Source: Paratractidigestivibacter faecalis (GTDB taxonomy: Bacteria > Actinomycetota > Coriobacteriia > Coriobacteriales > Atopobiaceae). Taken from it: a stretch of 64,000 nt of DNA. The notes beneath the pieces were generated by a model, which had not been told where the DNA came from, ran no database searches, and worked only from the letters and a program-made list of their open reading frames with translations. Positions 32,049 to 51,457 of this stretch are shown here, one piece after another. The position numbers and the translations under genes are program-made. The first letter of the stretch is position 1. Each line of letters opens with the position of its first letter. The stretch is taken from contig NZ_QSNG01000001.1 in assembly GCF_003416765.1 (NCBI RefSeq), forward strand, positions 1,266,742 to 1,330,741. The letters run 5' to 3'.

Positions 32049-32633
32049 CTACTCGTTCTCTTCGATCCTAGGCTTAATAATGCCATACCCACCGTTTTTG
32101 CGGTGGTAGATGACGTTGGTGAGGCCCGTCGTGGCGTTGATGAACACAAAGAAGTCATGCCCGAGCAGGTCAGTCTGGACGAGCGCCTCCTCCTCCGTCA
32201 TGGGCTTGAGGTCGATGTACTTCTCGCGGACGAGCTGGTCGTCCTCCTCCTCGGGAGCGGACTCGATGAGGCTGGCGAGGTCCTCCCCGGTTGCGGCGGG
32301 GACGGGGGCCGCCTGGGCACGCTGACGGCGGTCGATGACGCGGGTCTTGTACTTGCGCAGCTGGCGGGTGACCTTCTCGGCGGCCTCGTCGATGGCGGCG
32401 TACATGTCGTCGGAGGTGGCCACGACGCGGACCACGTTGTCGCGGACGAAGACGGTGACCTCGCAGGCCTTGCGCTCGGGGTTGGACGGGTTCTTGTCCA
32501 CGCGCAGGACGACGTCGCAGCTCATGGGCTTGATGTCAAATACCTTGAGGGCTCCCCCGACCTTGGCCTCGACGTGATCGCGCAGGGCGTCGGAAACGCT
32601 GACCTTGCGGCCGGAGATCTTGATGTCCACCAT
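32049..32633 (-). CDS. hpf: Long-form ribosome hibernation promoting factor (HPF/RaiA)
   Basis: The 194-residue protein has the N-terminal S30AE/RaiA domain (DIKISGRKVSVSDALRDHVEAKV, VRVVATSDDMYAAIDEAAEKVTRQLRKYK). A variable linker and the C-terminal dimerisation domain of long HPF (IDLKPMTEEEALVQTDLLGHDFFVF, GLTNVIYHRKNGGYGIIKP) follow. It pairs 70S ribosomes into inactive 100S dimers in stationary phase. ATG 32633 has TAGGAGG upstream. The degV gene follows directly. A structured RNA candidate and comFC lie further upstream, an arrangement known for raiA loci. Confidence 0.94.
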   Translation of the reverse strand: MVDIKISGRKVSVSDALRDHVEAKVGGALKVFDIKPMSCDVVLRVDKNPSNPERKACEVTVFVRDNVVRVVATSDDMYAAIDEAAEKVTRQLRKYKTRVIDRRQRAQAAPVPAATGEDLASLIESAPEEEDDQLVREKYIDLKPMTEEEALVQTDLLGHDFFVFINATTGLTNVIYHRKNGGYGIIKPRIEENE

Positions 32634-32709
32634 AGATGCCTCCTAAAAACGGTTGCAGATCGCGAACCCGCGGCTGCCAAGGCGGGCGCCGCGTACCTCT
32701 CTCTTACCC

Positions 32710-32738
32710 AAAAAGGGCGCCCGCCGGCGTCGGGCGCC
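32710..32738 (-). terminator. Intrinsic terminator after the solute-binding protein gene
   Basis: GGCGCCCG and CGGGCGCC form an 8-bp stem with a short loop, followed on the minus strand by CTTTTT. It lies 68 bp beyond the stop of the binding-protein gene, upstream of hpf. Confidence 0.75.
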
Positions 32739-32805: not shown

Positions 32806-33798
32806 CTACGCGGCGTCCGTGGAGGTGGAGGCGGTCCCAGCCTCGGTGCCGGCGTCCGCGTCGGCCTCTGCGTCAGCGTCGGCCTGATCGTCCGCGTTGG
32901 CGTCGGCCTGCTGGATGCCGTCGATGACCGAGGTGGTGTCAAGGCGAGACATGCCTCCCACCCAGCGGCCGCGCAAGACGTCCAGGACGCCGTTGGAGGA
33001 GATCACGTCCATGCCCTCAAGCACCTTGGAGAAGAGCGTGTTGTTCTCGGCCTTGACGCCCACGCCCAGGTAGGCGGGCTGGGCGAGCGTGCCGACGCAG
33101 GAGATGCCGTCGTAGACCGCGGCGAGGTAGCCGCCGGGGTAGGCGCCGCACAGCACGTAGTCGACCGTACCGGCCTCAAGGGCGGCAAAGGCCTCGTTGA
33201 GGTTGGTGAAGTCCTGCTCGGCGGCCTGTGTGCCGGCGCTCGCCAGAGCGCGCTGGGAGACGGAGCCCGCCTGGACGCCCACGGTCTTGCCGGCAAGGTC
33301 GGCCGCCGTGGCCTTGGTGCCCGAGGAGGCACGCGAGAAGAGCGCCATGGCGTCCTCGGCGTAGGAGCCCGCCACGGCGGTGTCCGCGTCGTCGCCGGCG
33401 CGAACGCCCATGACCACGTCGCAGGCATCGTAGGCGTCGGAGAGCCCGGTCACGGAGACAAACGCGCAGTCCACGCCCAGCTCGTCGGCCAGGGCGTAGG
33501 CCACGTCGACGTCGAGGCCCTCGTCGGCCGAGGAGAGCAGCAGCGGCGCGGACTCGGAGGAGAGCAGGCCCACCGTGAGAGTGCCGGCCGTGTGAAGCTC
33601 GTCTGCCGTGAGGGTGGTGGAGCGGGCCGCGCGGGCTGCTGCCTTGGCCTCGGCCACCGAGGTGCCGTTGCCCATGAGGGCGTCGAGGTCTACGGGGCCG
33701 AGCGAGCAGGCGGGAAGCGCCGCGAGCGAGACCGCGCACGCGAGGGCAAGCGCCCCGCGGCGCAGGTTGGTCCTTTGGGTTTGGGTTGAGGCGCGCAT
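32806..33798 (-). CDS. Solute-binding lipoprotein (SBP family 3-like)
   Basis: The 330-residue protein starts with a lipoprotein signal (LRRGALALACAVSLAALPAC). It continues as a family-3 binding protein (LTVGLLSSESAPLLL, GLDVDVAYALADELGVDCAFV, LAGKTVGVQAGSVSQRAL, FAALEAGTVDYVLCGAYPGGYLAA). It ends in a low-complexity Asp/Ala/Thr tail. Such proteins deliver amino acids to ABC importers, but no permease is next to it. The ligand-binding domain seems shortened. ATG 33798 was chosen for its signal peptide and nearby GAAGGACGG. Confidence 0.75.
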   Translation of the reverse strand: MRASTQTQRTNLRRGALALACAVSLAALPACSLGPVDLDALMGNGTSVAEAKAAARAARSTTLTADELHTAGTLTVGLLSSESAPLLLSSADEGLDVDVAYALADELGVDCAFVSVTGLSDAYDACDVVMGVRAGDDADTAVAGSYAEDAMALFSRASSGTKATAADLAGKTVGVQAGSVSQRALASAGTQAAEQDFTNLNEAFAALEAGTVDYVLCGAYPGGYLAAVYDGISCVGTLAQPAYLGVGVKAENNTLFSKVLEGMDVISSNGVLDVLRGRWVGGMSRLDTTSVIDGIQQADANADDQADADAEADADAGTEAGTASTSTDAA

Positions 33799-33924
33799 GG
33801 GTGTCTTCCGTCCTTCTCGCCAGCTGATGGTATGGGTGGGGCGCATGGTGCGGCCACTCTGTGCAAAGCAGGTGTTCCGCCCGGCTGACCTGGTCTTTGA
33901 CCCCACACTCGCGCACCGGGGCCT

Positions 33925-34140
33925 TCGCCGTGGGCGCCGCGGCGCCCTTGACTTGCAACCCTCTCGCCCGCGGGACCGTATGTCCCTTGAGTATTACGGA
34001 CGGTGCGACTTACTTCTAGGACGAACCATGATCGTCCGGGCGCGCACGCCCGGGCTTACGTGGATCCCTTTGGCCTCGTCTACCTTGGACTGGGGACGGA
34101 CTGATGCCGCCCCGCAACCACAGACCCAGGCGGAACCTCC
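33925..34140 (-). ncRNA. Candidate structured RNA, possibly the raiA motif
   Basis: The 33799-34195 gap on the minus strand is about 400 bp without a gene but with many pairing segments: CTGGGGA/TCCCCAG, CCGCC/GGCGG, CCGGGCG/CGCCCGG, GGACGA/TCGTCC and GGGCGC/GCGCCC. A TATACT -10-like box lies at 34143-34148. It sits downstream of comFC and upstream of hpf/raiA. The published raiA RNA motif of Firmicutes and Actinobacteria is found in this neighbourhood and has a similar length. Without a covariance search the identity remains an inference. Confidence 0.45.
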
Positions 34141-34195
34141 CCAGTATACCCGCCCAACACCCGTCAATGGCACCTGACAATGGGGACGCTGTTAG

Positions 34196-34927
34196 TTACC
34201 AGACGCGGGCGAGGGCGCAGGCGGTGGGAGGGCAGGCGCCGCGGGACAGAAGGGCGCGGGAGGCCTCGCGGATGGTGGAGCCGGTGGTGACCACGTCGTC
34301 CAGGAGCAGCAGCCTCATGCCGCTGACGTCGTCGGCCACCTCGACGGTGCCAGCCAGGTTGGCGGCGCGCTCGGCCTGGCCAAGCTCGCGCTGGTCACGC
34401 GCCCGTCGGCGCACCAGGACGTCGGCCAGCGGCAGCCCCGTGAGCCGGCAGAGCTCGCGCGCGACGAGCTCCATGTGGTCAAACCCGCGTCGCGCAAAGG
34501 CCGCGGCCGTGGCCGGCACAAAGCAGACGGCGTCCACCTCGCCGGCGTCATAGCGGGGCCGGCCGTCCGCCGCGGGCCAGGCGGTGGCCTCCTCCAGCGC
34601 GCAGAGCATGGCGGCCGCCATGACCGGCGCCAGTCGAAGCTCGTGGTAGTCCTTCATCGCGGGGACGAGCCGCCGCACCGGCCCCAGAAAGCCCAGCGCG
34701 CAGACGCAGGCGCGCGTCTCCCAGGGCTCGGAGCACTCGGTGCAGGTGAGGCCGCCGTGCGGGGCGCCACAGTTGGGGCACGCCAGCTCCTGGCGGACCC
34801 ACGGCAGCGCGGCCAGGCACTCGTCGCACAGGAGGGCCCCGGGCTCGTCGCAGCCCACGCAGCGCGTGGGGGCAACCAGCTCAAGAGCCTCGTCCATGAC
34901 GGCTGAGAGCACCCCTCTACCCGGCAC
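34196..34927 (-). CDS. comFC: ComFC-family phosphoribosyltransferase-like competence protein
   Basis: The 243-residue protein opens with a zinc-finger-like part (CVGCDEPGALLCDECL, CPNCGAPHGGLTCTEC). It then has the ComF core FLGPVRRLVPAMKDYHEL, FARRGFDHMELVARELC and a PRTase-type LLLLDDVVTTGSTIREASRAL. ComFC is needed for DNA uptake or recombination of incoming DNA in competent bacteria; the chemistry is unknown. GTG 34927 follows GGGGAGG; ATG 34897 is an alternative. Its presence is relevant to the uptake-sequence-like motif in this window. Confidence 0.88.
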   Translation of the reverse strand: MPGRGVLSAVMDEALELVAPTRCVGCDEPGALLCDECLAALPWVRQELACPNCGAPHGGLTCTECSEPWETRACVCALGFLGPVRRLVPAMKDYHELRLAPVMAAAMLCALEEATAWPAADGRPRYDAGEVDAVCFVPATAAAFARRGFDHMELVARELCRLTGLPLADVLVRRRARDQRELGQAERAANLAGTVEVADDVSGMRLLLLDDVVTTGSTIREASRALLSRGACPPTACALARVW

Positions 34928-36816: not shown

Positions 36817-37058
36817 TCGAGTTCCTCTCGTCTCTTCCGCCCCGTGTCGGTGCGGGCGGATTCCCAGCAGACGGCGACGAGGCGTAGACTGCGCAGCGTC
36901 GCACGTAATTCGCAACTCTACCACGCGCCCCGCCCTCCCACGTCGGGAAGGGCCGCGGGAAAGCAGACGTTAACGTAGGGACGAGGTGCTACGCGGCGCG
37001 CTCTTCTCGCCAGGTGCTAGGCTGGGGACGCACGAAGGAGCACCGAGGGGAGTTACCC

Positions 37059-49693: not shown

Positions 49694-50533
49694 CTAGATC
49701 TCGGAGCCGAACCACTTGGTCTCGATCTCCTTCATGGTGCCGTCGGACTTCATGTCCTCCAGGGCCTTGTTGACGGCCTGGGTGAGCTCGGGGTTGTCCT
49801 TGGAGACGGCGATGCCGTACTGCTCGCCGGTCGGAATCTCCTTGACGATCTGGAGGTCGGAGAAGGACTGGGCCAGCATGTAGGAGGCAACGGGGAGGTC
49901 GACGACCATGGCCTGGTAGAGGCCGGTCTGGACGCCGGTGAGGGCGGCGGTCACGTCGTCGACGGGCACGCGGACGGCGTCGGGGAGGTTCTCGCCGATC
50001 CACTCGTCGCCGGTGGTGCCGCCCTGGCAGACGACCTGCTTGGAGGCGTCGTTCAGGGTCTCCTCGGTCTCGGAGGAACCCTTGGCCACGACGATGGCCT
50101 GGTTGGAGTCAAGGTAGGGCTCGGAGAAGTCGACGGACTCCATGCGCTCGTCGGTGATGGTGATGGCGGCGATGGAGACGTCGGCCTTGCCGCCCTGCTT
50201 GATGATGGGCACCAGGGTGTCGAACTTCTGGTTGGGCAGGTAGGAGGCGGTGAGGCCCATCTTCTCGGCGACGGCGTTGATGACGTCGACGTCAAAGCCC
50301 ACGGGCTCGCCGGTCTTCTCGTCCATGTACTCGAAGGGGGCAAAGCCCAGCTCGGCGACGACGGTGAGCTTGCCGTCCTCGATGAGGGTCATGCCCTTCT
50401 TCTCGTCAGACTTGGCGTCGGAGGAGGAGTCGGTGCTGGTGGCGTTGGAGTTGCCGCAACCGGCAAGCACGGCGCCGGCGGCGACGGTGCCAAAGACGGC
50501 CAGGAACTCGCGACGGTTCATGTTCATCTGCAT
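49694..50533 (-). CDS. Amino-acid-binding lipoprotein (SBP family 3), paralogue 1
   Basis: The 279-residue protein starts MNRREFLAVFGTVAAGAVLAGC (lipoprotein signal). It has the family-3 binding fold: LTVVAELGFAPFEYMDEKTG, GFDVDVINAVAEKMGLTASYL, AITITDERMESVDFSEPY and PTGEQYGIAVSKDNPELTQAVNKAL. It delivers a polar amino acid to the permease downstream. It is about half identical by eye to the next gene, so the pair arose by duplication. ATG 50533 was chosen; M5 is an alternative. Confidence 0.92.
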   Translation of the reverse strand: MQMNMNRREFLAVFGTVAAGAVLAGCGNSNATSTDSSSDAKSDEKKGMTLIEDGKLTVVAELGFAPFEYMDEKTGEPVGFDVDVINAVAEKMGLTASYLPNQKFDTLVPIIKQGGKADVSIAAITITDERMESVDFSEPYLDSNQAIVVAKGSSETEETLNDASKQVVCQGGTTGDEWIGENLPDAVRVPVDDVTAALTGVQTGLYQAMVVDLPVASYMLAQSFSDLQIVKEIPTGEQYGIAVSKDNPELTQAVNKALEDMKSDGTMKEIETKWFGSEI

Positions 50534-50620
50534 GGTGGGTCCTTTCCCAGGGATGGCTAGGGCATCTGCCCGGTCACTGAAATGCAGGCGAGAAGCGCGC
50601 CTCTTGCCTGCAAAGGGTTG

Positions 50621-51457
50621 CTACATTGCGGAGCCGAACCACTTGACCTCGAGGCTCTCGATGGTGCCGTCGTCCTTGAGGGCGGCGAGCGCCTCGTTGA
50701 TGGCGGAGGTGAGGCCGGCGTTGGACTTGGAGACCACGATGCCGTACTGCTCGCCAGTCGGGATCTCGATGACCACATGACAGTCGGTGAAGGAGTTGTT
50801 GCAGAGGTACTTCATGACGGGCAGGTCAGCGGAGGCGGCGGCGTAGATGCCGGTGGAGACGCCGGTCACGGCCTGGACGGGGTCGTCCAGGGAGACGATG
50901 GTGGCCTTGGGCAGGTTCTCCTGGGCCCAGGCCTCACCGGTGGTGCCGGACTGGCAGGCGATCTTCACGCCATCGGCGTTCAAGGCCTCGGCCGTGGTCT
51001 TGTCGGAGTCGGCCTTGACGACGACGCCCTGGTTGGAGTCGATGTAGGGGTCGGTGAAGTCGATCTCCTGCTTGCGCTCGTCGGTGATGGTGAAGTTGGA
51101 GACGCCGCAGTCAGCCTTGCCGCCCTGCTTGATGAGCGGGATGATGCTGTCGAACTTCATGGCCGGCAGGTACTCGCAGGTGAGGCCCATCTTTGCCGCG
51201 ACGGCGTCCATGAGATCGACCTCAAAGCCCACGGCGGTGGTGCCATCCATGTAGTCGAACGGCGGATTGGCCAGGTCAGAGGCAACGATGATCTTGCCGT
51301 CCTGAACCAGGGTGTAGCTGGCGGCGTTTGCGGAGTCGGTGCTGGCGGCAGCACCTGCACCAGAGTTGCCGCCGCAGCCTGCGAGCACGGCTGCGCCAGC
51401 CGCAGCTCCAAGGCCAAGGATGAAGTTGCAGCGGTCAAGCGTCTTGTTGAGGTTCAT
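50621..51457 (-). CDS. Amino-acid-binding lipoprotein (SBP family 3), paralogue 2
   Basis: The 278-residue protein has a lipoprotein signal (FILGLGAAAGAAVLAGCGG) and the same binding fold as its neighbour (IIVASDLANPPFDYMDGT, GFEVDLMDAVAAKMGLTCEYLPAMKFD, SNFTITDERKQEIDFTDPYIDSN, PTGEQYGIVVSKSN). It lacks the twin arginines of paralogue 1. Two receptors for one permease suggest a broadened substrate range. It is the first gene of the transporter operon; ATG 51457 has AAGGGAA upstream. Confidence 0.92.
   Translation of the reverse strand: MNLNKTLDRCNFILGLGAAAGAAVLAGCGGNSGAGAAASTDSANAASYTLVQDGKIIVASDLANPPFDYMDGTTAVGFEVDLMDAVAAKMGLTCEYLPAMKFDSIIPLIKQGGKADCGVSNFTITDERKQEIDFTDPYIDSNQGVVVKADSDKTTAEALNADGVKIACQSGTTGEAWAQENLPKATIVSLDDPVQAVTGVSTGIYAAASADLPVMKYLCNNSFTDCHVVIEIPTGEQYGIVVSKSNAGLTSAINEALAALKDDGTIESLEVKWFGSAM

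Follow-up and report, generated by a model that had tools for sequence, protein, structure and literature searches.

The 64,000-nucleotide stretch of Paratractidigestivibacter faecalis DNA analyzed here (the window) contains a gap on the minus strand between comFC and the next gene, and raises the questions of what occupies the gap and why a binding-protein gene stands between it and hpf. A first-pass annotation had proposed a structured RNA, possibly the raiA motif, with an extra binding-protein gene inserted between it and hpf. The gap holds a raiA (ModT) RNA, the host being one of the Coriobacteriia. A cmscan search against Rfam matches family RF03072 from end to end (model positions 1–209 of 209) with 145.7 bits against a gathering threshold of 101.3 (E 4e-36), as the proposed identity predicted, and the source genome has a single copy (Table 1). 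The proposed span (33925–34140) does hold the RNA but stops 49 nt short of its 3′ end and so loses the 3′ strand of helix P1. The structured and non-coding character of the gap is real: the RNA together with its P1 extension (34137–33873) folds at −125.9 kcal/mol compared with a mean of −111.5 kcal/mol for 200 dinucleotide shuffles (z −3.14), one of which (1/200) folds as well. Across 85 loci the median identity to the window reaches 73.5% within raiA but falls to 53.3% on its upstream and 48.2% on its downstream side. Elsewhere in the window an aspS RNA (RF02930; 79.8 bits versus 42.5) is located ahead of aspS (36823–36902, minus strand).

Table 1. Features of the raiA locus in window coordinates; zf_Tbcl-type genes are given in the coordinates of their own clostridial loci.
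Feature	Coordinates	Strand	Evidence
hpf/raiA protein gene, long form with C-terminal domain	32049–32633	−	PF02482 and PF16321 over cut-off; TIGR00741
Terminator-like hairpin with T tail, SBP1–hpf interval	32706–32738	−	Consensus scan only
SBP1, lipoprotein with solute-binding-protein fold	32806–33798	−	Pfam, profile, AlphaFold2, Foldseek
raiA RNA (Rfam RF03072, ModT), full length	33876–34134	−	Covariance model
pk1 3′ half, pk-loop, TTCGTCC	34019–34025	−	Partner of 34075–34081
pk1 5′ half, P3 loop, AGACGAG	34075–34081	−	Pairs with 34019–34025
Optional helix P2 of raiA	34092–34114	−	21-nt insert relative to Rfam model; hairpin when folded
−10 box TATACT of putative raiA promoter	34143–34148	−	Direct reading and alignment with relatives
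comFC	34196–34927	−	Pfam Pribosyltran and DZR_2 over cut-off; TIGR00201 and NF008616 below cut-off
zf_Tbcl-type gene, L329	3553–3831		Pfam
zf_Tbcl-type gene, L331	4228–4509		Pfam
zf_Tbcl-type gene, L330	1788–2066		

The window RNA has a longer P6 than the Rfam model in addition to the optional helix P2, and a P2 hairpin of at least four pairs is present in 74 of the 80 Coriobacteriia sequences from which the stretch could be cut out. Six of the seven pk1 pairs form in the window, where the first position is a mismatched A–C. Class-wide, 492 of 553 cells pair in the 79 of 87 Coriobacteriia sequences caught by the search pattern (eight were left out, and two earlier patterns catching 52/87 and 45/87 were replaced), whereas 1000 partner shuffles average 429.5 and never exceed 446. 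Compensatory changes in relatives, which the first-pass annotation had suggested looking for, are found here: C–G/T–A at pair 4 and C–G/A–T at pair 6, and both partners change at pairs 3, 4 and 6. The first pk1 pair is A–C in 54 of the 79 class sequences and A–U in 92 of 102 others, a set in which most clostridial genomes are present twice as short and long loci.

raiA is present in 136 of 140 genomes of the window's family and in 284 of 296 genomes of the class sample (263 of the 268 of good quality). Elsewhere it is patchy, with 137 of 396 genomes in a phylum sample and 35 of 196 in a Clostridia sample. Three genomes (G076, G239 and G291) have two raiA matches each; those of G076 (C56) are equal-scoring copies ~55 kb apart in opposite orientation and are perhaps an assembly duplication.

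Pfam and TIGR matches place comFC and hpf where they had been annotated. comFC ends 61 nt upstream of raiA, the SBP1 start codon is 77 nt past the RNA 3′ end, and hpf comes second downstream, with SBP1 first. The extra binding-protein gene is genuine, but its insertion in the source genome is ruled out by a class-wide survey of gene order using the window's proteins and profiles built from these: an orthologue in the same orientation comes immediately behind raiA in 124 of 129 Coriobacteriia loci. The largest component is a non-random set of 81 loci (the window plus 80 hand-picked to spread over genera, from source loci that favor high-scoring raiA matches), in which SBP1 follows raiA in 77 by tblastn and 78 by plus-strand ORF search; two further sets give 6/6 and 40/42, the latter searched on the plus strand only. 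In other Actinomycetota hpf is found within 600 nt behind raiA in 35 of 49 loci, and an SBP in none. Because SBP1 is class-wide, yet hpf usually directly follows raiA in other Actinomycetota, insertion of an SBP between raiA and hpf, if there was one, would have happened at the base of the class.

The order in basal class members is comFC, raiA, SBP1, SBP2, permease, ATPase and hpf, and basal examples score well over the Pfam cut-offs for SBP_bac_3, BPD_transp_1 and ABC_tran; the nearest NCBIfam model for the ATPase is GlnQ, below cut-off. SBP1 stands alone between raiA and hpf in the window's family and in one more family of the same order, and a third family, in which most loci have comFC reversed and hpf is nowhere near, keeps the raiA–SBP1 pair. 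The basal arrangement with a whole amino-acid importer appears to be the older, of which the window's family kept only SBP1. Two ordinary SBP_bac_3 genes are present in tandem elsewhere in the window (49706–51292, minus strand; contig 1316447–1318033).

Among Clostridia, hpf is next within 600 nt in 13 of 27 loci (31 minus four whose 3′ end was not found, which reappear as L348, L358, L359 and L360 in the gene-order survey). Three of 34 clostridial loci (L329, L330 and L357) have raiA, a small zf_Tbcl-type protein and then an SBP. The two of them that extend far enough continue with permease and ATPase, after which L329 has hpf. Orthology of these SBPs with SBP1 is unsupported, since they fall outside the SBP1 clade in the tree described below. 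A zf profile match to a small zf_Tbcl-type gene ~37–120 nt behind raiA occurs in 12 of the 34 clostridial loci.

Among 16 class genomes without a raiA match, SBP1 was not seen without raiA: four (G045, G223, G225 and G263) have an SBP1-like match, and these candidates were rejected as all four lie at assembly breaks, including a partial raiA at a contig edge (L407), an N joint beside SBP1 (L409) and contig starts (G223 and G225). The G225 match is only about 60 residues long. Matches in the well-covered raiA-less genomes G336, G354 and G188 score 111–130 bits, in the range of ordinary SBPs. Conversely, raiA is kept without SBP1 in five of the 129 loci (G025, G026, G027, G114 and G120, representing two genera), so raiA does not need SBP1.

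SBP1 is related to the amino-acid-binding proteins by both family profile and fold. The window protein scores 24.9 bits against Pfam SBP_bac_3, just below the cut-off of 26.4, and basal SBP1 proteins are above it. Compared with solved amino-acid-binding proteins, the SBP1 profile is best matched by AncQR (4zv1; E 1.7e-52), and the AlphaFold2 model (pLDDT 87.7, pTM 0.77) finds Thermotoga maritima ArgBP (6svf; E 1.6e-16) as its best Foldseek match. The lipobox cysteine is invariant in 50/50 SBP1 proteins. A quick maximum-likelihood tree with 85 rows places every one of the 46 SBP1 rows that it includes (of 83 extracted) on one side of a branch with SH-aLRT 100; the other 39 rows comprise 15 SBP2, two clostridial SBPs, 21 unlinked SBPs drawn from ten genomes and one additional row.

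The ligand pocket of SBP1 differs from that of its relatives. In glutamine-binding protein, an arginine grips the carboxylate of the amino acid. The corresponding column is arginine in 15/15 SBP2 and 25/27 unlinked or clostridial SBPs, but in only 2/50 SBP1 proteins, and the window SBP1 has no arginine there. Because the carboxylate arginine is lost, SBP1 probably binds no ordinary amino acid in the ordinary way.

The −10-like box noted in the first-pass annotation aligns with those of relatives and is the −10 box of a putative raiA promoter. All 86 class loci have a best match to TATAAT of 4–6 of 6 positions, and the consensus over them is TGnTATAAT (first T 99%, second A 97%, last T 100%), with the TG extension in 73/86 and a distance of 7–11 nt from the box to the RNA start in 79/86. 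Scores of 5 or 6 of 6 are reached in 62 of the 86 promoter windows, compared with fewer than 2% of random 22-mers from the same loci. Alignment of the 86 loci on the best −10 hexamer reveals no conserved −35. The window has GG instead of TG at the extension position, and a consensus sigma-70 scan of this stretch finds no −35/−10 pair and no −35 at normal spacing.

The interval between the RNA end and the SBP1 start codon is short, with a median of ~35 nt; 75 of 78 loci have 7–103 nt, mostly 26–80 nt, and the three outliers (187, 402 and 750 nt) probably result from automatic start choice. None of the 78 intervals contains a terminator-like site, and such a site is located within 160 nt past the SBP1 stop in 6/78 relatives. 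T-runs (at least six T in 8 nt) behind the RNA occur in 20/49 loci of other Actinomycetota versus 3/81 of the class. At least four T in the 6 nt directly behind P1 are present in all five loci without SBP1 versus 19 of 124 with it, a hint, from two genera only, that without SBP1 the RNA is as if back to ending there.

We think it probable that raiA is expressed from its own promoter and read through into SBP1 as one transcript, with the RNA acting in trans as in Clostridia. Transcription would start at the −10 promoter just upstream of raiA and, with no terminator to stop it, continue into SBP1, such that raiA would form the 5′ part of the SBP1 transcript. We infer a single transcript because in most loci a promoter would not fit into a gap of ~35 nt. 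SBP1, a predicted solute-binding-fold lipoprotein with a changed ligand pocket, would be made from this transcript, through read-through or once a cut at the foot of P1 has freed it. By analogy with Clostridia, raiA itself would be a very stable folded RNA whose trans action bears on the transition from growth into stationary phase. Several points stand against this account: SBP1 may have a promoter of its own within raiA or the gap, above all in the window with its 77 nt, neither a TG extension nor a normally spaced −35 accompanies the window's −10 box, the five loci with raiA alone dispense with SBP1 altogether, and the trans role is established in Clostridia only.

A credible possibility, if not a probable one, is that SBP1 merely uses the strong promoter of raiA without functional coupling, an explanation that overlaps the preferred one, which leaves coupling open. 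The promoter of an abundant RNA would hold the pair together, and other genes (hpf and those of the zf_Tbcl proteins) are found behind raiA in other lineages; against this, one orthologous SBP family has been kept class-wide while the importer genes, comFC orientation and hpf changed.

It is unlikely that raiA in the Coriobacteriia is mainly a cis-acting leader, either riboswitch-like or a processing element, that sets SBP1 expression, which would make the Rfam label "Cis-reg; riboswitch" literally right. The geometry is that of a leader, as raiA and SBP1 share a strand wherever SBP1 is found, the start codon lies 26–60 nt after P1 in most loci, the arrangement is kept even with comFC turned round or hpf gone, and SBP1 in raiA-less genomes occurs only at assembly breaks. 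However, no riboswitch expression platform, whether terminator or hidden Shine-Dalgarno sequence, was found in the 78 gaps and 75 loci searched; across the latter the mean unpaired probability of the Shine-Dalgarno sequence is 0.45 versus 0.41 with shuffled tails, with no sign of its being hidden. The five loci that retain raiA alone and this lack of a platform make a purely cis role less likely, and in two Clostridia a raiA deletion is reported to be rescued by a copy supplied in trans (PMC11706538).

It is similarly doubtful that raiA and SBP1 constitute one dedicated module in which a trans-acting RNA and a lipoprotein with a repurposed pocket are made from one transcript, with SBP1 as a cell-surface sensor or effector feeding or reading the raiA pathway; if true, SBP1 would be the first protein partner of that pathway within reach of genetics. 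A minimal probability remains for an unrecognised coding region, for which a 189-aa plus-strand reading frame (33608–34177) spans the raiA stretch in the list of open reading frames, and it is refuted by the covariance match and by RNA lengths of 220–318 nt among 87 loci that fall in all three remainders modulo 3, long antisense frames being common in high-GC DNA.

The preferred reading, own promoter with read-through into SBP1, can be set against what is published on raiA. The description of the motif as being of unknown function is partly outdated, for phenotype and structure though not for molecular mechanism, since published work on clostridial raiA includes deletion phenotypes and cryo-EM structures (PMC11706538, PMC11751092). 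The Clostridioides difficile RNA is described as trans-acting, stable and expressed in exponential phase (PMC11706538), and the solved Clostridium acetobutylicum fold has pk1 at its core (PMC11751092, PMC12286853). PMC11706538, citing Soares 2024, reports comFC upstream of 74% of raiA members and a raiA/hpf gene near 66%, and in the ModT paper gene neighbourhood is judged a poor guide to raiA. That judgement seems not to hold in the Coriobacteriia, where the lipoprotein gene stayed as importer genes, comFC and hpf were lost or moved, and the pairing may help to explain the role of a poorly understood RNA. In a class where raiA is nearly universal, this conserved pairing leaves just one gene for deletion and one junction for mapping.

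The neighbor gene is itself not news, because a review mentions that raiA is often upstream of periplasmic-binding-protein genes (PMC11477304). The raiA–SBP linkage is already known in outline, and the class-wide leader-like geometry and the altered SBP1 are added detail. No description of the class-wide single orthologue, short leader or lost arginine was found in a literature search that says little on this point, the primary gene-context papers (Soares 2024 PNAS, Weinberg 2017) lying outside its coverage.

The closest known systems are the raiA/ModT RNAs of C. acetobutylicum and C. difficile, which the window RNA resembles in its full model match, pk1, comFC upstream and its own promoter motif at the RNA start. 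It differs from them in having no terminator behind the RNA and the SBP1 gene directly downstream. It also has P2, which the C. difficile RNA lacks according to PMC11706538, and the place of P2 is a 2-nt linker in the clostridial loci caught by the pk1 pattern. The kind of neighbor is the same as in the review, which describes a raiA that frequently lies hundreds of nucleotides away from the following ORF and in some cases is inverted (PMC11477304), whereas the Coriobacteriia gap to SBP1 is mostly 26–80 nt and never inverted where SBP1 is found. Finally, SBP1 shares the fold and profile of the family 3 SBPs (SBP_bac_3; ArgBP 6svf, AncQR 4zv1), but mostly lacks their carboxylate arginine and, in the window's family, has no permease or ATPase beside it.
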